DNA of 64,000 nt, from positions 60,984 to 124,983 of the IMG/VR virus record IMGVR_UViG_3300025914_000009, one strand, 5' to 3'. This document shows, piece by piece, positions 6,924-61,900 of this stretch. The position numbers and the translations under genes were made by a program. Position 1 is the stretch's first letter. Each line of letters opens with the position of its first letter. The notes under the pieces were generated by a model. That model was not told where the DNA came from and searched no databases. It saw only the letters and a list, made by a program, of their open reading frames with translations. Origin of the DNA: a virus.

Positions 6924-7499
6924 CTATCTGTAGAATCTGGACATATCCCTTTGTTTGGGAGATGACTGATAAGTACAAGATTCTCCATGATAGGTAAATG
7001 TGTAGCCTTTTGCAGATTTCCCTTTACCTGCAAGGATTCTATGAATAGTTGCTATGTGAAGAGAAAGTGCTTTGGCACAAGTCTTCATAGTTGGAAAAGT
7101 GGCAAAGAGAGACAAATCATGAATAAGATAAACATCAACTGACTTTACTCTTTTATGATGAGCTTCTCTGATCTTTTCGGCAGTTTTCTGAGAGCACTGA
7201 AAGTTTTCACCATTTGGTTCATAAATGTTGTAACCATATTCAGGAAGGTGAGAATTATGTTGTGAAATATAATAGACTTCTCTGGCTATCCTGTTCTCAA
7301 AAGTGCATTCTTCAAGTACATAGAAAGAAAATTTGTCTTTTCCATACTTGTTATAAGAACTTTGAAGATGGATAGAAAAATGGGTACCTTTACTCAACTG
7401 ACGAAAATGTGAATACTTTCTAGTCTTTGGAGATTTTGTAGAACCTATATAAACCTTATTGTTAACCAGGTTCTTTATTGCATATATGTAAGCTTTCAT
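6924..7499 (-). CDS. GIY-YIG homing endonuclease with NUMOD-type domain
   Basis: 191 aa, the only minus-strand gene in the left 47 kb. The N-terminus is a GIY-YIG nuclease domain (YIYAIKN..YIGST, with a conserved R-x-x-x-H stretch and NKYG). The C-terminal half (VYLIHDLSLFATFPTMKTCA then helix and KGYTF) is a NUMOD1/helix-turn-helix DNA-binding module. No intron is visible, so this is a free-standing homing endonuclease that has inserted between 6920 and the Ro60 gene; its orientation marks it as a recent mobile insertion. Confidence 0.88.
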   Translation of the reverse strand: MKAYIYAIKNLVNNKVYIGSTKSPKTRKYSHFRQLSKGTHFSIHLQSSYNKYGKDKFSFYVLEECTFENRIAREVYYISQHNSHLPEYGYNIYEPNGENFQCSQKTAEKIREAHHKRVKSVDVYLIHDLSLFATFPTMKTCAKALSLHIATIHRILAGKGKSAKGYTFTYHGESCTYQSSPKQRDMSRFYR

Positions 7500-7514: not shown

Positions 7515-7564
7515 ATTTGACAGCAAAAAACCAAATATTTCGACAAGATGTTTGACAGCAAAAA
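7515..7564 (+). promoter_or_regulatory. duplicated TTTGACAGCAAAAA motif at the Ro60 start
   Basis: The 14-mer TTTGACAGCAAAAA occurs at 7516-7529 and again at 7551-7564, straddling the Ro60 start codon at 7548. It contains ACAGCAAA, the constant motif of the nine RNA units downstream. The first copy lies in a small hairpin (ATTTG 7515-7519 with CAAAT 7532-7536). I infer an RNA-level binding site, perhaps for autoregulation by Ro60. The TTGACA part could instead be a promoter hexamer. Confidence 0.4.
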
Positions 7565-9254
7565 GACACAGTTATTCTCCATGCCGGAGAAGAAGAAAAC
7601 GACATCTGACTCACCATTTGTGCAAGCAGGTCTCAAAAAGAAAGCTCAAGTCCTATCAGGAAATGGAGCTATCAAGTATTCTACAACAGGGAATGCTTTT
7701 GTAGACCAGTTTGGTAAGATGGGAGAGTACAAAAAGCCCAGATCTTTCTCTGATATAGAAAAAGATTGCGAAGCTCTATGGGCAATTGATCCTTTGAGGG
7801 CAATCAAGATGAGCTTTTACATACGTACAATTACCAGACCTACCGACTTATTAGGAAAAACTACTTCCATTACCCAGAGGGGTGCTGAGCTTAAGCATGA
7901 GGGTATAATGAGGCTTATATGGTTGGCTACTAAAGATCAGCAAGCTTTCATAAAGAATCTATGGGTTCTTCCAGTCCTCGGATCATGGAAAGATATTATT
8001 ACAATGCTTCAGTATGATCTTGTATATCATGGATGGGGAGGTAGAGTTTTACCATGGGTAAGATTTGGTGATCTACTATTATCTGCCCTTGGGGATAAGA
8101 ATACTTGTGAACTGGTAAAGAAATACATACCTAGTATCAAGACCAATTCAAAATGTACTACTGTAGAAGCACAGGCTGATACCATGATTGCCAAATGGCT
8201 TTGCGGACTTCTATATCCTGAATATGTAGATAGTCCTGATGAGGTGCATGGTAAGTTTCATAAAAAGTACAGGAAGATGAAAACCTCAGGTACTGCTCAT
8301 GAATGGCAAAAGCTTATTTCTCAGAAGAAATTCGATAGAATAGACTTTGGTAAGATTCATGGGCGTGCTTTATCACTCCTTGTAAGGAGTAAATTCCTGA
8401 AGCGTCAAGGCTTACAGGATAAATATGCGGCATGGGTTAAGAAGCCTACTACAGAGGTTAAATACACAGGATATGTCCATGAGCTGTTCTCAGAACTCTT
8501 CCGAGGAAGTATGAGTGCAAAATACCCAACCTTGGCAAGTGTTCCAGAACATATGAGAGATACTATCAACAAACAGTTTGTGACCCTGGTTAACAAAGGT
8601 AAATCAGAGGATCATACCACCTCTCTGATTGTTGTTAGAGATACCTCAGGCTCAATGATGTCCACAGCTACGGGCACTAACATGTCTTCCTATGGAATCT
8701 CAAAGGCATTAGGGTTATACTTTGCAGAGTTCTTGGAGGGCCCATTTGCAAACTCTTGGATAGAATTTAACAGCGGAGCCAAGATGCACCAATGGACAGG
8801 TAAGACCCCGATTGAAAAATGGTTCAATGACACAAGTTCTGTTGTGGGAGGTACTGATTTTCAATCAGTTGTGAAATTATTCTGCCAAATAAAGGCTCAG
8901 GGAGTTCCTGAATCTCAATTCCCCTCAGGGATTCTATGTATTTCGGATGGTGAGTTCAATCCTGCCATGGCAAGCAAGACCAATGTAGAAAGCATGCTAC
9001 TTACTCTAAGAAATGCTGGTTTCAGTGAGGATTATGTAAGTAACTTTGTTATTGTCTTCTGGAACATACCTAATCAGTATTATGGAGCCATGTCTAGAAC
9101 AAAGTTCGAAACATATGGAAGTATCTCAAATGTATTCTACTTTGGGAGTTATTCAGCCTCTATAGTAGCCTTCTTAACATCCAAAATTCGAACAGCTGCA
9201 GAGCTGGTAGATGTAGCTCTTGATCAGGAAGTATTAAACTTAGTAAAGCTTTAG
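7548..9254 (+). CDS. Ro60/TROVE-domain RNA-binding protein (Ro/SS-A homologue)
   Basis: 568 aa, the usual Ro60 length. Residues about 40-350 form the helical HEAT-like TROVE ring (DPLRAIKMSFYIRT, LPVLGSWKDI). From about 355 a vWA domain carries an intact MIDAS: DTSGS at 365-369, GGTDF, SDGEF. Ro60 rings clamp ends of misfolded RNA in the central hole and bind Y RNAs on the outer surface; bacterial Ro60 works with exonucleases in RNA decay. The stop codon lies at the start of the first Y-like RNA unit (9254), and eight more follow at 10.35 kb, so protein and RNA partners appear co-encoded. Confidence 0.92.
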   Translation: MFDSKKTQLFSMPEKKKTTSDSPFVQAGLKKKAQVLSGNGAIKYSTTGNAFVDQFGKMGEYKKPRSFSDIEKDCEALWAIDPLRAIKMSFYIRTITRPTDLLGKTTSITQRGAELKHEGIMRLIWLATKDQQAFIKNLWVLPVLGSWKDIITMLQYDLVYHGWGGRVLPWVRFGDLLLSALGDKNTCELVKKYIPSIKTNSKCTTVEAQADTMIAKWLCGLLYPEYVDSPDEVHGKFHKKYRKMKTSGTAHEWQKLISQKKFDRIDFGKIHGRALSLLVRSKFLKRQGLQDKYAAWVKKPTTEVKYTGYVHELFSELFRGSMSAKYPTLASVPEHMRDTINKQFVTLVNKGKSEDHTTSLIVVRDTSGSMMSTATGTNMSSYGISKALGLYFAEFLEGPFANSWIEFNSGAKMHQWTGKTPIEKWFNDTSSVVGGTDFQSVVKLFCQIKAQGVPESQFPSGILCISDGEFNPAMASKTNVESMLLTLRNAGFSEDYVSNFVIVFWNIPNQYYGAMSRTKFETYGSISNVFYFGSYSASIVAFLTSKIRTAAELVDVALDQEVLNLVKL

Positions 9255-9345
9255 GGGCAGCTACAGCAAACACTATATTATACAGATTAATGCTGAACAA
9301 AATCCTGAGTGTTCTGAAGTTTCCCAGACAGGTGAATGCTGTCCC
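9254..9345 (+). ncRNA. Y-like RNA unit 0, abutting the Ro60 stop codon
   Basis: GGGGCAGC (9254-9261) pairs with GCTGTCCC (9338-9345) with one G-U; it is followed directly by TACAGCAAA as in the main array. The 5' strand begins on the last base of the Ro60 stop codon. The interior is about 70 nt and I see no full tRNA-like domain in it. Position and motif tie it to the Ro60 gene. Confidence 0.6.
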
Positions 9346-9446
9346 GTATACTCTCTAAAAGCCTTTGGGTGAATGGATGGATTAAAAGGATTTAGAGGCA
9401 GGGGTGAAAATTGAGATCCCCTGTCTCTTTTTTTAAATTCTATATT

Positions 9447-10025
9447 ATGAAGCTATCTGAAAAGGGTAAAGATATCATTGAGGTCTTCATATTTAACATG
9501 AAATGGATCTTGCTTGCTTTCCTTATCAAATTAGGATGGGATCTTATGGTTCTAGCCTATTTTGTATACAGTCAGCCTGAACTCACTCAAGCCCAGCTGA
9601 TGCATTTCATTGAGGATGTGGATATTACAATGATTGCAATCCTTATAAAGATGATGATAGCAGGTGGTTATAACTCTTCTATATCCAAGAAACATGATTT
9701 TGATTCAGAGAATATTAGTAGTGGGCAGTTAAAGATTAAGATGGGTACATCTATCATAGGTATCTCTTCTGTTCATATGCTAAAAGTATTCATGGAGTCA
9801 GAGAATTTGACTGTGGAAGAAATATGGAAGAAAACTATTGTCCACTGTGCTTTTATTGTTGGAGGACTAGCACTATCTTTGATTGATTATTTACACTGTA
9901 AAACAGAATCTCATGAGACAATACCTACTTCTGGCTCTTTGCCTCATGTTAATAACATGGGGATGTCTGGAGAACACTCATTTCCACAGATACAAGAAAG
10001 CAAAGGTTTACACGGAGAGAAATGA
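9447..10025 (+). CDS. YqhA/UPF0114-like membrane protein
   Basis: 192 aa from the ATG at 9447 (a TTG at 9411 would add twelve residues in an A/T-rich leader). Hydrophobic segments at about 17-38, 55-75, 100-120 and 135-155. The stretch HFIEDVDITMIAILI and the later GQLKIKMGTSIIGISSVHMLKVF match the layout of the UPF0114 (YqhA) family (E-x-x-D then D-L-K-x-K). Inner membrane; family function unknown. Its C-terminal codons overlap the next gene in another frame. Confidence 0.6.
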   Translation: MKLSEKGKDIIEVFIFNMKWILLAFLIKLGWDLMVLAYFVYSQPELTQAQLMHFIEDVDITMIAILIKMMIAGGYNSSISKKHDFDSENISSGQLKIKMGTSIIGISSVHMLKVFMESENLTVEEIWKKTIVHCAFIVGGLALSLIDYLHCKTESHETIPTSGSLPHVNNMGMSGEHSFPQIQESKGLHGEK

Positions 10026-10341
10026 TGATGGATCAGTCTTTCTTTACTATTACATATTAGCTACCTCCAATAACTATGGAGGGTCAAGCTATTATTATTA
10101 CTCCAGTAGGACTGCTGTTACTACATTCTCCCCTGCGGGCTGGTCAAACTCATCAATTGACCCAGTGAGCAAATTTGAAAACCTCAAGGAGGAGGATAAG
10201 GAGGTTGATGTTGATCTTGATGAAGAAGTTAATGGAGATATGATGGAAGAGATGCAAGACGATCCTGATATTTCAGAGGTAGGAGATGACTCAGCAGGTG
10301 ATTCCTCTGGAGATTCATCAGGGGATGGTTCAGGTGACTAA
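9913..10341 (+). CDS. putative lipoprotein with acidic Ser/Gly/Asp tail
   Basis: Starting at the ATG at 9913, the protein begins with a lipoprotein signal (MRQYLLLALCLMLITWGC; Cys at 18). A Tyr/Ser-rich segment and a strongly acidic D/S/G repeat tail follow. The first 113 nt overlap the YqhA-like gene in the +1 frame, an arrangement reminiscent of embedded spanin lipoproteins, although the acidic tail is not spanin-like. Membrane-anchored, function unknown. Confidence 0.5.
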   Translation: MRQYLLLALCLMLITWGCLENTHFHRYKKAKVYTERNDDGSVFLYYYILATSNNYGGSSYYYYSSRTAVTTFSPAGWSNSSIDPVSKFENLKEEDKEVDVDLDEEVNGDMMEEMQDDPDISEVGDDSAGDSSGDSSGDGSGD

Positions 10342-10348
10342 TTTCAAA

Positions 10349-10407
10349 AGGGCACATACAGCAAACATTATAACAATTCACCTACATTTGAATTAAAAGT
10401 GTGCCCT
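10349..10407 (+). ncRNA. Y-like RNA unit 1 (minimal type)
   Basis: AGGGCACA (10349-10356) pairs with TGTGCCCT (10400-10407), 8 bp, followed by TACAGCAAA. At 59 nt it is the shortest form: closing stem, motif, A/T-rich loop with a weak TTCA/TGAA hairpin, and TTAAAAG before the 3' strand. GTTAA separates it from unit 2. Confidence 0.65.
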
Positions 10408-10411
10408 GTTA

Positions 10412-10531
10412 AGGTCTGCAACAGCAAATATATCCTTGTGGCACTGGGGGTCAGTGGTGGAAATCCACTCTGTGGGGAAACCCAAAGTAGCTTAGTACTT
10501 AGAGCACCAGTTGGAGAAAAAATGCAGACCT
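10412..10531 (+). ncRNA. Y-like RNA unit 2 with permuted tRNA-like domain
   Basis: Closing stem AGGTCTGCA/TGCAGACCT (9 bp), then ACAGCAAA. Inside, tRNA parts come in permuted order: anticodon-stem 3' strand ACTGG (10443-10447), variable GGGTC, T arm AGTGG-TGGAAAT-CCACT (10453-10469), acceptor 3' strand CTGTGGG, GAAA tetraloop (10477-10480), acceptor 5' strand CCCAAAG, TA, D arm (10490-10505), then CCAGT (10507-10511), which pairs with ACTGG. The acceptor stem is thus a capped hairpin, and the closing stem replaces the anticodon loop. One A-G mismatch in the acceptor. This is the clearest YrlA-like unit. Confidence 0.75.
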
Positions 10532-10535
10532 GTTA

Positions 10536-10649
10536 AGATACCTAACAGCAAACAATTTGATCCTCTTGTGGATTAGTAGCTTAATTGGTAAAGCGCCCAA
10601 TTGATAATTGGGAGATCCTAGTTCAATTCTAGGCTTTAAAGAGGTATCT
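10536..10649 (+). ncRNA. Y-like RNA unit 3 with tRNA-Ile(GAU)-like core
   Basis: Closing stem AGATACCT/AGGTATCT, then AACAGCAAA. The interior keeps normal tRNA order: D arm 10579-10594, anticodon arm CCCAA-TTGATAA-TTGGG (10596-10612; anticodon GAT), T arm CCTAG-TTCAATT-CTAGG (10617-10633). The expected acceptor strands (GGATTAG against CTTTAAA) do not pair, so the unit's own closing stem takes the acceptor position, with an extra ATCC/GGAT hairpin inserted before the D arm. A canonical aminoacylatable tRNA-Ile is unlikely. Confidence 0.65.
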
Positions 10650-10653
10650 GATA

Positions 10654-10842
10654 AGGGTTCTTACAGCAAATATTAGCAAATGGAAACCTTTGGTCGGAGG
10701 TTCAAATCCTCCCCTCCCAACCAGATTTGGTGTCACCCTAAGGTGTTCAGGACAGCCAAATCTGGTGACTAATCAACCTGACCATATCTGGTTGGGAGGT
10801 AGCTCAGTCTGGTTAGAGCAGAGGATGCAACAAAAGAACCCT
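10654..10842 (+). ncRNA. Y-like RNA unit 4: permuted tRNA with encoded CCA
   Basis: Closing stem AGGGTTCT/AGAACCCT, then TACAGCAAA. The 3' half of a tRNA comes first: T arm GGAGG-TTCAAAT-CCTCC (10696-10712), acceptor strand CCTCCCA (10713-10719), A73 and CCA (10721-10723). After a 69-nt hairpin-rich spacer comes the 5' half: TGGGAGG (10793-10799, perfect 7-bp match), TA, D arm GCTC..GAGC with GG in the loop, and GAGGA pairing partly with ACCTT (10686-10690). If the spacer were removed at CCA, a mature-looking acceptor end would result. Confidence 0.75.
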
Positions 10843-10846
10843 GATA

Positions 10847-10906
10847 AGGAGACTTACAGCAAAACAACTCAACTTTCAACCGTTTATTTGAAATAGAGAG
10901 TCTCCT
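10847..10906 (+). ncRNA. Y-like RNA unit 5 (minimal type)
   Basis: AGGAGACT/AGTCTCCT closes a 60-nt unit with TACAGCAAA directly after the 5' strand. The loop is A/T-rich with no stable inner domain. Same class as units 1 and 8. Confidence 0.65.
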
Positions 10907-10910
10907 GATA

Positions 10911-10999
10911 AAGTGCCACACAGCAAATATTAATTCTTTTTCAACAAAGACCGCCCCTGGATGGGAGGAAGCTAAAGAGGTTCGATTCCTCAGGCACTT
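10911..10999 (+). ncRNA. Y-like RNA unit 6 with T arm joined to the closing stem
   Basis: AAGTGCC (10911-10917) pairs perfectly with GGCACTT (10993-10999); CACAGCAAA follows the 5' strand. Directly before the 3' strand lies a T arm, AGAGG-TTCGATT-CCTCA (10976-10992), so here the closing stem is geometrically an acceptor stem stacked on the T arm as in a tRNA. The D-arm region is replaced by the motif and an A/T-rich stretch. Confidence 0.65.
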
Positions 11000-11003
11000 G
11001 ATA

Positions 11004-11150
11004 AGGTGAGCAGCAGCATTTAACTAAATAATGGCCCTAAGGTTGGGAAAACTGAAACAGTCATACCGATACTCTCATAGGTTAATACGAAAAGAGTAGT
11101 GTCAAAGGCCCCAAGGGGTACTGGCGGCTATACAAAGAATATGCTCATCT
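11004..11150 (+). ncRNA. Y-like RNA unit 7 (large, diverged motif)
   Basis: AGGTGAGCA/TGCTCATCT (9 bp with one G-U). The motif here reads GCAGCATTT, a variant of ACAGCAAA. The 130-nt interior has GGCC (11033 and 11107) and ACTG/CAGT (11052 and 11058) hairpin options but no tRNA-like loops that I can see. Confidence 0.55.
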
Positions 11151-11154
11151 GATA

Positions 11155-11214
11155 AGGTCACATACAGCAAAAAGCTAAAAGCAATCATCTTGTAAATGAT
11201 AAAAACTGTGACCT
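11155..11214 (+). ncRNA. Y-like RNA unit 8 (minimal type, last of array)
   Basis: AGGTCACA/TGTGACCT closes 60 nt with TACAGCAAA after the 5' strand and a small ATCAT/ATGAT hairpin inside. The trailing GATAAG is present but no further unit follows. Confidence 0.65.
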
Positions 11215-14482: not shown

Positions 14483-14590
14483 AGACTTAGGTTCAGAACA
14501 ACAAAATAAGATGTCAGGTAGTTAATTAAATCCATAGGTCGCAGGTTTGAATCCTGTCTCCGCCTCTGTTCCGTAGCATTTTTTGTTTAA

Positions 14591-14810: not shown

Positions 14811-14968
14811 AGTATCTATTGTCCAATAATAGACAAGTCCAGAGAACTGAGTTTCTACTCCCTTCTCTGGCATTCAAGGCGGAGTAGTTCAGTTGACAGA
14901 ACAATGGAATAATATTAGCTTAAGGCTACTTGAAAACATCTTGACAGTGAAAAACTGTATTAATTACA

Positions 14969-19851: not shown

Positions 19852-19952
19852 AGTCAGATAGCTCAGTTGGTTAGAGTACCTGCTAGGGCTTGATCGAAAG
19901 ATCAACGAAGCTGCCGCACAGGAGGTCAGGAGTTCGAATCTCCCTCTGACTT
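19852..19952 (+). tRNA. tRNA-like gene with hairpin insertion in the anticodon loop
   Basis: Acceptor AGTCAGA (19852-19858) with TCTGACT (19945-19951) is perfect; D arm GCTC..GAGT with GG; T arm AGGAG-TTCGAAT-CTCCC. Between CCTG (19879-19882) and CAGG (19919-19922) lie 36 nt instead of about 9, including a hairpin TTGATC-GAAA-GATCAA. If the extra 28 nt were removed the loop would read CTGCCGC (anticodon GCC). No CCA; ends 2 nt before a start codon. The motif TTTGACAGCGAAA, close to the Ro60-leader motif, lies upstream (19834-19846). Confidence 0.65.
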
Positions 19953-20212: not shown

Positions 20213-20270
20213 AGGGGGATAGCTCAGTGGTAGAGCATTCTTGTCGGAAGTTCGATTCTTCCTCCCCCTA
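20213..20270 (+). ncRNA. tRNA-like element lacking an anticodon arm
   Basis: AGGGGGA/TCCCCCT acceptor stem (perfect), TA, D arm GCTC-AGTGGTA-GAGC, A26, then only eight bases (TTCTTGTC) before the T arm GGAAG-TTCGATT-CTTCC, and ACA at the 3' end. The anticodon stem-loop is absent, so it cannot decode. It ends 2 nt before the DNA polymerase start codon. It could be a processing signal for RNase P/Z or a tRNA mimic. Confidence 0.65.
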
Positions 20271-25106: not shown

Positions 25107-25288
25107 AAGTGAAAGCAGGTTACAGCACTTGCACTCTATTATTTATCACTTTCCTGGTTCTCAAATTATGTGGAGTAATCAACTGGTCTTGGTGGTGGAT
25201 AACTGCACCAATATGGGGGCCTCTTGCAATCATTGCTCTGCTAATGCTTATTGGACTTATTGGTATGATAGTTACAAAGAAAATCTAA
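25085..25288 (+). CDS. small membrane protein, two TM helices
   Basis: 67 aa: a short basic lead, helix at 16-33 (CTLLFITFLVLKLCGVI), then W-rich turn and helix at 40-65. Overlaps the glycosyltransferase 3' end by 22 nt. Function unknown. Confidence 0.6.
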   Translation: MAQKTKVEVKAGYSTCTLLFITFLVLKLCGVINWSWWWITAPIWGPLAIIALLMLIGLIGMIVTKKI

Positions 25289-58911: not shown

Positions 58912-61900
58912 TTATCTCACCGATCCGTAGTTAGTATTCATTCTGATCCCATATTCCTTGGCTATATCATTATTAAAGATTGCCAGATAAGTGATTAACT
59001 CTTTGAAGAAAGGCAGACCTCTTGCTACATATTTGAGTGGATGTTGCCTTGCAGCTTGCTCATCATTTCCAGTTACTTCATAGAAGAGCTTTTTGATGAC
59101 TGAGGTGAAGAATCTTTCCGCTTCCACTAATATACCTACTGCAGGGAATACTGATCCATTCAGGATATTGGTAAAAGATGAGGGTGTGTACATGAAAGTC
59201 AACTCATCTGTCAGCTTATCTAGCCCCCTTAGAGCCCATCTATAGGCACCTTTTTGCTCATCATCATCATCTTTATCTGGAGCACTTAGCCTCATAGCTA
59301 TTAGGAGACCCATTAATCCAGCAGCCAGCATAAGCTCCTTCATCTCAGATCTTACACCTTTAATATACATGTCCACAAATTCAGCCTCATTCATCTCCAG
59401 ATCCTGCATTTCTTCAGCAAAAGCTTCTCTTTTCTTGGCATATTCCTTCTTTGCTACCTCTATCAGGGGCTCCGAGTTATTACCCAGAAGCTTAGTTAGA
59501 TTTGTTATGCTACTAAGTCCCATATGCCTAACTCCATTAAAGAGCATCCTAATTCTTCCATATTCATACTTATCAGTTCCAGGTGCATACTTCAGAGACC
59601 CAAATCTTACGTCAAACATTCTGGGAATCCAGTTCTTAAACATAAAGAAAGACTGCCATGTAATATACCTCTTATATAAAGATAAATCCTCATGTGAAGT
59701 ATTACCCAGAGCATCCTTAATGATCTCTAAGATCTGTTGTCTCAGATTAATGACGGCATCTCCATTTCTGTCAATATTAGGTAGCTCTATCTGATCATTT
59801 ACTACCTGAGCATAGTTTATAAGGGCCTGGGGGGACTTCTGCAGTTCTTCAACTCTCTTTTCCAGTCTTTCCTCAAAGGCTTTTGAATCAGCATATGTTC
59901 CAGCAAACTTATTAGCATGCCCAAGTTCCTTTCTTGCTACATCCCTGATATTCACCAGTTTACCATCCTGAACTATTGTATTTTTGATCATACTAAGAGC
60001 TATGATACTGTTTACCCAGTTATCTGAACCTCTCTGTAGATAAAAGAGATGGTCAGATGATAGGTATTCTACAGCCTTAGATACTGACATCTTTCTTATC
60101 ATATGCCCAGTTCTATCTTCCAGATAGGGATGTATGAAGGAAATTAACCCTGCAAGTTTCTTGTCCTCATTCGATCCATAGAACTTACCTGAAACGTACT
60201 TCAGCTCAGCCTCCAGAAGATCTTTCTTGTTAAAATACAGACCCTGGTTTATAGCAGCATTGGCAGTACCACCAAATAGCTGTGCTAAAGATGTCATCAC
60301 ATTCACCCCAAGGGTTTTAGTAACAAAGTATCTATTCATTGCCCCAACAGCCTTTATTCCAGAGATCTTAATATCCTCTTTCTCAGGCACAGTGATTATC
60401 TCTGAGCCAAAGAGCTTGTTTATTTTCTCAACTGCAGACTTATAGGGAATAGTAAGCACTACATCAAACTCATCCGACTTAGCTTTTCCATAATATACAG
60501 CATCCAAGTGCTGCTTTATATAGTCAGCGTTAACTTCATTTGAGATGAGAATAGGCTTGTTTGTAGAGCGTTCTTTCTTTAACTTACCTGTAGTAGTGCT
60601 CTCATAGGCTTTTCTACCAAGTTCTGTATAGTAGAGCATTCTGGCAAGACCTTCTGACTCAGTTCTAAGTTTATATTTCAGGATCTCTGCATCCCAAAGG
60701 GCAAGTACTTTGAATACATCCATGGACTTCTCGGAGTAATCCTTAAAGTAATTACCATCAGCATCTTGTACCCATTCGCCCAAGTCAGTCACATAGTTTG
60801 CATGGATTTCATCCAATGGTTTACCTGTAATTGGGTCTATCTTTCCAAACTCCTGATCCTCAGCCTCTATTCTAATACCTCCAAACAAAGCTCTAAATTT
60901 ATTCCCTGCAGGGGCAGATGAAAGCTTTTCCAATAAGCTTCTTCTTACATTAGGAAACCAACTCCATCCATTATGTTCATGGAGCATTCCAAGATTCCAT
61001 GATTCCTTCAATCTGTCTCTATAATACTTATAGAACTCACGTAGAGCTTCTACCTTCTCAATTTCCTGATACGCAGCAGATTTCCACTTATCTTTTAAAG
61101 GGAAATTCTGCAATGCCCAGTTATAACTTCCTACACCTTTCTTAAAGTCTATATGGAAAGTATCTACAAAGTTCTGCAGGTTCTGCTGTACAAGTATCTT
61201 ATTTTCAGCATCATCTGCTACTATTCTGGCAGTTTTAGCATCATCAATTCTTCTTTGGTGTTCTGCAGCAAACCATTTATTATACTCATCTATATCAATA
61301 TTTGCCTTAACCCACTTCTGATCTCTGTTCTCTTGGGCCTTTTTTAAGTCATCATAGAACTTTCTGTCAATCTCCTGGATCATCTTTCCTGTCCATCTCC
61401 CCTTACTATCATATTGGAAGACTTTCTTATATAATTCTTCTACTGGTCTACCTGCTCTCCATTCGTCCACTTTCTTTTCAATCTTCTGCAGCTCATCAAG
61501 TCTATCAAGAAACTCAAGCTTGAAACCATTATTTATTCTCTTCACAAGTGCCCATAGCTCAGCTCCTGCCTTAATAGAAGATTGTGAAAGGGAACGCACC
61601 ATTCTTCTGTACCAAGTGAGTTTCTTCTCTGGGGTAAATTCGTCCTTAATGCCCACTTTGGCAGCAAACTTCTTAGTTCTGAATTGAACAGCAGTCTTCC
61701 AGTAATCTTTGATAAGATCAGATGCATCGTCTGAGATATCTCTGGCTTCCTTTATAATGTCCTGAGAATCAACAGTTCCGTCATCAAAGGTAGCCTTATA
61801 GATATCATAGAGATCTTTATAGATTTCAATCTCATCTTTGTCAGACATTATCTCATCTGCAATCTTATTAAGCTCAGCTATGGTAGCCTTCTCTGGGTCA

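Follow-up and report, generated by a model that had tools for sequence, protein, structure and literature searches.

Class I RNAs of Dictyostelium start with AAG, end with CUGU and consist of a short stem, a motif of 11 nt and a loop that varies (PMC7919456), and they were reported to be absent outside dictyostelids and unique to social amoebae (Kjellin et al. 2021, PMC7919456). The bacterial Y RNAs, including YrlA (Rfam RF02553), are small RNAs found beside the gene of a Ro60-type protein (Rsr/Ro60). In Listeria phage CKA15, abundant noncoding RNAs (ncRNAs) and an Rsr-like protein, CKA15_055, were described, and the authors suggested Y RNAs upstream (PMC12282133). Here we consider a 64,000-nt stretch of viral DNA (the window), positions 60,984 to 124,983 of the 125-kb virus record IMGVR_UViG_3300025914_000009, which contains an array of small RNA units. 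The units share a handle resembling class I RNA and are linked to the gene of a DUF2828-type protein, and in one of them, unit 3, the handle encloses the core of a tRNA-Ile(GAU).

The tRNA core of unit 3

Unit 3 is composed of the following elements (window coordinates).

10536-10649, plus strand: unit 3, core of a tRNA-Ile(GAU), unpermuted and lacking the acceptor stem, enclosed by the handle
10536-10543, plus strand: 5' strand of the closing stem, AGATACCT
10545-10552, plus strand: ACAGCAAA motif
10557-10576, plus strand: extra hairpin before the D arm, built from the old 5' acceptor strand
10579-10594, plus strand: D arm
10596-10612, plus strand: anticodon arm CCCAA-TTGATAA-TTGGG, anticodon GAU
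10617-10633, plus strand: T arm
10642-10649, plus strand: 3' strand of the closing stem, AGGTATCT

The preliminary description, made from the letters alone, had proposed a tRNA-Ile(GAU)-like core whose D, anticodon and T arms follow one another as in a normal tRNA. ARAGORN makes no tRNA call for unit 3. The Rfam tRNA model has a match there at 10575-10635 (52.6 bits, E 1.9e-8 for the whole window), and this match and the folding both confirm that the three arms are intact and in order. Since the match is limited to positions 6-65 of the 71 in the model, unit 3 keeps only the two innermost acceptor pairs (A-U and G-C), while the outer five positions are unpaired. The molecule is closed by the 8-bp array stem AGATACCT/AGGTATCT instead, again as had been proposed. 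The folding energy is -32.9 kcal/mol against -23.1 for shuffles (z -2.7), and the predicted arms are exactly those that the earlier reader had listed; the claim that ACAGCAAA and an extra hairpin precede the D arm also held at the positions given above. ACAGCAAA itself occurs 11 times in the window versus 2.8 expected, and 0 of 100 shuffles reach 11.

With its three arms intact, unit 3 could be taken for a functional tRNA-Ile gene, the acceptor stem being restored once the transcript has been processed. We regard this as next to impossible: according to the Rfam match, the fold and the sequence, there is no 7-bp acceptor stem, five acceptor positions being unpaired, and the 3' end is without CCA; moreover, a tRNA-Thr in another phage (L164, see below) has the same truncation. 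The phage also has 22 ordinary tRNAs within one 20-kb stretch, a normal tRNA-Ile(GAU) among them, so that unit 3 is not required for decoding. This ordinary gene was rejected as the source of unit 3, as the two are about 56% identical (about 34 of 61 positions), and thus unit 3 is no recent copy of it.

A handle linked to the DUF2828 gene

The array comprises at least nine units, unit 0 at 9254-9345 and units 1-8 at 10349-11214, with the layout A-AG-stem-(WW)ACAGCAA-variable loop-stem-CU-G. Each unit combines a closing stem of its own with the motif (in unit 7 a degenerate form) and an insert, and spacers of the CTGATAAG or CTGTTAAG type separate units 1-8. A tmRNA reading of the array was rejected, the tmRNA matches there being fragments only. 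Two further features belong to the gene upstream.

7548-9254, plus strand: DUF2828/DUF7788 protein of 568 amino acids, phrog_850 'RNA-binding protein', presumed binding partner of the units
7546-7607, plus strand: unit-like element over the DUF2828 start codon, probable autoregulatory site

The 568-residue protein matches Pfam DUF7788 (PF25043) above the cut-off (40.1 vs 27.1 bits), DUF2828 below the cut-off, and phrog_850; it has the DxSxS motif of vWA domains.

As blastn of the locus against phage records gave no match and a single-sequence search of viral contigs gave no relative, alignments and a DNA pattern were needed to find relatives. Leptolyngbya phage Lbo-JY46 encodes a 46%-identical homologue, immediately followed by five units of the same build, and Listeria P100, Enterococcus and Fusobacterium phages have far more distant homologues with 1-3 units just upstream of the gene. 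A protein-blind DNA pattern (spacer, gap and motif) applied to viral contigs retrieved arrays, nearly all of them with the protein gene. Starting from the protein, stem-closed ACAGCAA units were found at 53 of 55 viral loci (205 units in total), versus 3-11 units for five scrambled motifs on the same strand and 4 units on the other strand of these loci. In the distant phrog_850 clade units are present at 58 of 80 loci, with 138 units against 7-25 for scrambled motifs. Bacterial chromosomes yielded two matches only, both in metagenome bins, one with two array units and one with none. Literature searches returned unrelated papers only for the motif and plant papers only for DUF2828.

Of 187 units, 177 have a distance of 9 nt between the unit start and the motif. 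The consensus of these 187 units has A at position -1 in 97-100%, an AG start, WWACAGCAA at a fixed distance, and a CU end followed by G (the units had been selected for the A/G start, the C/U end and the G after it). Variant-motif ACTGCAAA units at L147:7393-7487, L150:6937-6990 and L166:7143-7207 are found by the class I model and missed by the exact-motif scan, and hence the unit counts are lower bounds.

A decaying tRNA gene array, in which the units are tRNA pseudogenes without a role, would account for acceptor loss, permutation and fragments, all of which look like decay. However, the handles stay in a fixed register and are tied to one protein family over distant phages, normal tRNAs are present elsewhere in the phage, and in units 0 and 7 the closing stems differ from those of the orthologous units in the closest relative, L023, on both sides, that is, in a compensatory manner. 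Handle retention and protein linkage refute decay as the sole explanation, and we consider it very improbable.

Class I RNAs and phage units are alike in length (about 60 nt), in the AAG start and CUG end, in the short closing stem, whose pairing is conserved while its sequence is not, and in the unpaired (CC)UUACAGCAA beside the 5' strand, with a variable loop. The Rfam class I model RF01414, with the motif consensus CCUUACAGCAA, matches 40 of the 51 phage records that encode the protein (E<=0.01). The best match has 39.7 bits, and the gathering score of 41.5 bits is reached by none of the 51 records, so that the units are class I-like and not formal members. Among 44 comparison phage records a single one is matched, and it encodes a DUF2828-type protein beside the matches; the other 43, of which one more encodes a homologue, have no RF01414 match, nor do any of the 14 control genomes. 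The mapped matches lie in the locus of the protein in 65 of 68 cases, and the 64 matches with the motif comprise 58 with CAGCA[AT] and six with near variants such as ACTGCAAA. What the model recognises is the units, not AT-rich phage DNA in general. Unlike class I RNAs, the phage units are arrayed with CTGATAAG between them, and many exceed the class I length and contain parts of tRNAs; the gap between stem and motif is one base shorter, and no DUSE promoter, a eukaryotic element located about 60 nt upstream, is expected. The protein partner of Dictyostelium class I RNA known so far is the RRM protein Rnp1A, whereas the phage units adjoin a DUF2828 gene.

This DUF2828 protein appears to be a remote relative of the Ro60/TROVE-vWA proteins. 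In hhalign comparisons phrog_850 was aligned with cyanobacterial TROVE proteins over 424 columns with 96% probability, and the window clade with phrog_850 with 100% probability; the array neighbour is thereby tied to TROVE through profile comparison only. The Listeria homologue is closest to D. radiodurans Rsr according to HHpred (PMC12282133). CKA15_055 belongs to the DUF2828/phrog_850 family; its gene starts at 25215, and immediately upstream, at 25553-25289, there are three units. The CKA15 study describes neither the likeness to class I RNA nor the display of tRNA parts (PMC12282133). The most transcribed region of this phage (26236-26727, L283:5099-5590; PMC12282133) does not contain the ACAGCAA motif; this ncRNA was rejected as an array unit and is thus a different, unexplained one.

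The main rival to the role proposed below follows from such a partner: the ribonucleoproteins (RNPs) may act as Ro60/Rsr with Y RNA does, as scaffolds or gates that tether a nuclease or cover an RNA-binding surface, with tRNA-like parts that recruit, or are matured by, tRNA enzymes. In keeping with this reading, the presumed partner seems to be Ro60-related, though remotely, a permuted tRNA-like module is present in about 30 phage units, the permuted units have matches to Rfam YrlA (24.6-37.9 bits), and in Listeria phage P100 genes for RtcB and RNA ligase are found close to the DUF2828 gene. Still, these YrlA scores are far below the cut-off of 69, and on this ground the units were rejected as Y RNAs. 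Unit 3 has no YrlA match, the handle differs from the Y RNA stem, with no Y-type Ro-binding stem recognised in the phage units, and the anticodon-arm loops of short units (see below) are unexpected for a gate or tether. We consider this reading possible but doubtful. The term "Y-like", used in the preliminary description, thus fits the kind of partner protein and does not fit the RNA, as the handle corresponds in sequence and structure to Dictyostelium class I RNA, not to Y RNA or YrlA.

The element over the DUF2828 start codon reads A-AGATGT-TTG-ACAGCAAA...ACATCT-G, in codons AAG-ATG-TTT-GACAGCAAA...ACATCT-G, and is also present in many relatives. In homologues starting with AAGATG, [AG][CT]ATCTG is found 36-63 nt downstream in 17 of 19 cases, versus 0 of 18 in homologues without AAGATG (Fisher p 1e-8, a guide only, since the homologues are related). 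A unit-like element at this place points to repression by the DUF2828 protein of its own mRNA, and the protein probably autoregulates through this copy of the handle.

Upstream of the start codon, a GIY-YIG homing endonuclease gene (6924-7499, minus strand) abuts a partial copy of the DUF2828 gene start at 7519-7545 (ACATTTGACAGCAAAAA). The copy looks as if left by insertion.

tRNA pieces in the units and their possible role

The other units of the array hold various inserts.

9254-9345, plus strand: unit 0 (GGGGCAGC/GCTGTCCC), directly after the DUF2828 gene
10349-10407, plus strand: unit 1, short type
10412-10531, plus strand: unit 2, permuted tRNA-like remnants, the T-arm-like one ahead of the GTAGCTTAGTACTTAGAGC D arm; read from the sequence
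10654-10842, plus strand: unit 4, permuted tRNA (3' half, linker, 5' half; 7-bp acceptor, 5-bp anticodon-stem remnant)
10847-10906, plus strand: unit 5, short type; RF01414 24.7 bits
10911-10999, plus strand: unit 6, with a T-arm-like hairpin
11004-11150, plus strand: unit 7 (AGGTGAGCA/TGCTCATCT; degenerate motif GCAGCATT)
11155-11214, plus strand: unit 8, short, with an anticodon-arm-like hairpin ATCAT-CTTGTAA-ATGAT (anticodon UGU); RF01414 24.6 bits

Between units 0 and 1 (9411-10341) there are two open reading frames (ORFs), one of them for a UPF0114 membrane protein; the array of the relative L023 continues without these ORFs.

In about 30 units, from all phages taken together, the tRNA is permuted: the T arm comes ahead of the D arm, and a linker closes the acceptor stem, which in most cases has 7 bp. 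What opens into the handle is no more than a remainder of the anticodon stem, and these units are hence tRNAs permuted at the anticodon. Unpermuted tRNA units are present in three unrelated phages, and in two of them the truncation is the same. In particular, L164:4528-4642 is an acceptor-less tRNA-Thr(CGU) core of 115 nt, compared to 114 nt in unit 3, with the same 6-65 truncation in the Rfam tRNA model and the same fold; it is independent of unit 3. In L171:2935-3050 the tRNA is complete (Rfam tRNA 1-71), the acceptor stem still being there. A homologue with a normal acceptor stem and without ACAGCAAA, which the preliminary description had named as the refuting case, was not found. Together, the two additional unpermuted units and the permuted ones support the earlier suggestion that tRNAs may have been captured into the array in both forms. 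Moreover, the counterpart of unit 4 in L023 has the same handle and the same first 29 nt but holds a different tRNA, and thus inserts in one handle have been exchanged.

Short units frequently contain an anticodon arm. A hairpin whose 7-nt loop is identical to a real anticodon loop (the reference being 426 real tRNAs from the loci examined) is present in 49 of 198 short units, versus 2.0 in shuffles (maximum 6) and 1 for reversed loops. L023 has the same CUUGUAA loop (UGU) as unit 8 on a different stem. Lys UUU is the most frequent anticodon (15 of 49 loops vs 17 of 426 real tRNAs, p 3e-8), and U36 is found in 33 of 49 loops vs 163 of 426 real tRNAs (p 2e-4); both p values are overstated, as units of homologous phages are not independent.

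The following mechanism is proposed. The array would be processed into single units with a common handle, formed by a closing stem with conserved A-AG...CU-G ends and the unpaired ACAGCAA beside its 5' strand. The Ro60-like DUF2828 protein, whose gene lies just upstream, most likely binds this handle, and it seems to control its own mRNA through the copy of the handle over the start codon. The loop of the handle may serve as an exchangeable display site for tRNA pieces. On display would be an anticodon arm in many short units, the elbow and acceptor of an anticodon-cut tRNA in permuted units, and in unit 3 the three arms (D, anticodon and T) of a tRNA-Ile(GAU), whose entry was presumably via the acceptor end. 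It is most likely enzymes recognising tRNA that the RNPs bind. The role that we favour, and hold to be the likelier one with some reserve, is that of decoys for host anticodon nucleases during infection. Computation shows the handle and its association with the DUF2828 gene, the likeness to tRNAs and the unit-like element at the start codon; binding by the protein, release of single units and the decoy role are inferred.

Phage tRNAs have been proposed to counter anticodon nucleases (PMC10264068). The array units and the phage tRNAs that act against tRNA-cutting defences (PMC10264068, PMC12409363, PMC11555353) are alike in being phage RNA that resembles the targets of these nucleases, but those tRNAs are complete and replace the cut host tRNAs, whereas the array units are not chargeable and could be bait only.

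Alternatively, the units may titrate or recruit tRNA-modifying or processing enzymes (e.g. t6A or pseudouridine synthases) in favour of the phage tRNAs. The loops, which fit the CUNNNAA anticodon pattern with an excess of U36-A37, the T arms retained in many units, and the phage's own cluster of 21 tRNAs are consistent with this. The excess of Lys UUU over other U36 anticodons is not predicted by it, and we consider it improbable.

Apart from the non-independence of units in homologous phages, several observations weigh against decoys bound by a Ro60-like protein. As regards the protein, the window clade taken alone reaches only 60% probability against TROVE in hhalign, Pfam TROVE (PF05731) has no match in the phage at E<=10, and the PDB profile matches are weak vWA matches only. 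As regards the display, about three quarters of the short units have no recognised anticodon loop and the permuted units have no anticodon, so that an anticodon-nuclease decoy does not cover every unit.

More tentatively, the Ro60-like DUF2828 protein might carry a library of tRNA pieces as defence bait, with the same protein-handle pair underlying the amoebal class I RNAs, though we think this rather unlikely. Irrespective of this reading, the findings join three loose ends, namely the Ro60-like genes of many large phages, the amoeba-"unique" RNAs and the phage tRNA relics, and class I RNAs gain a testable partner (the DUF2828 protein) and a testable binding site (the stem plus ACAGCAA). The decoy reading, if true, would be a new phage counter to tRNA-cutting immunity, with bait instead of replacement tRNAs.

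Other RNA elements in the window and in related loci

In a related phage contig, a Hatchet ribozyme (L123:3304-3454, 75.1 bits) precedes the DUF2828 gene by about 2.4 kb. Two related arrays are flanked, one by a tmRNA match (L163:7806-8208, 52.8 bits) and the other by a group I intron (L184:7540-7755, 91.9 bits).

Outside the array, the window has further tRNA-like sequences. A tRNA-like 3' half (14530-14575, T arm, ...CTCCGCC) lies about 300 bases ahead of the matching 5' half (14878-14920, GGCGGAGTAGTTCAG...), with a small ORF between them, and this may be a permuted or split tRNA. The tRNA-like gene at 19852-19952 (Rfam 45.1 bits) has an insertion in the anticodon region, and another one of 58 nt at 20213-20270 (Rfam 49.7 bits) has acceptor, D and T arms and apparently no anticodon arm.
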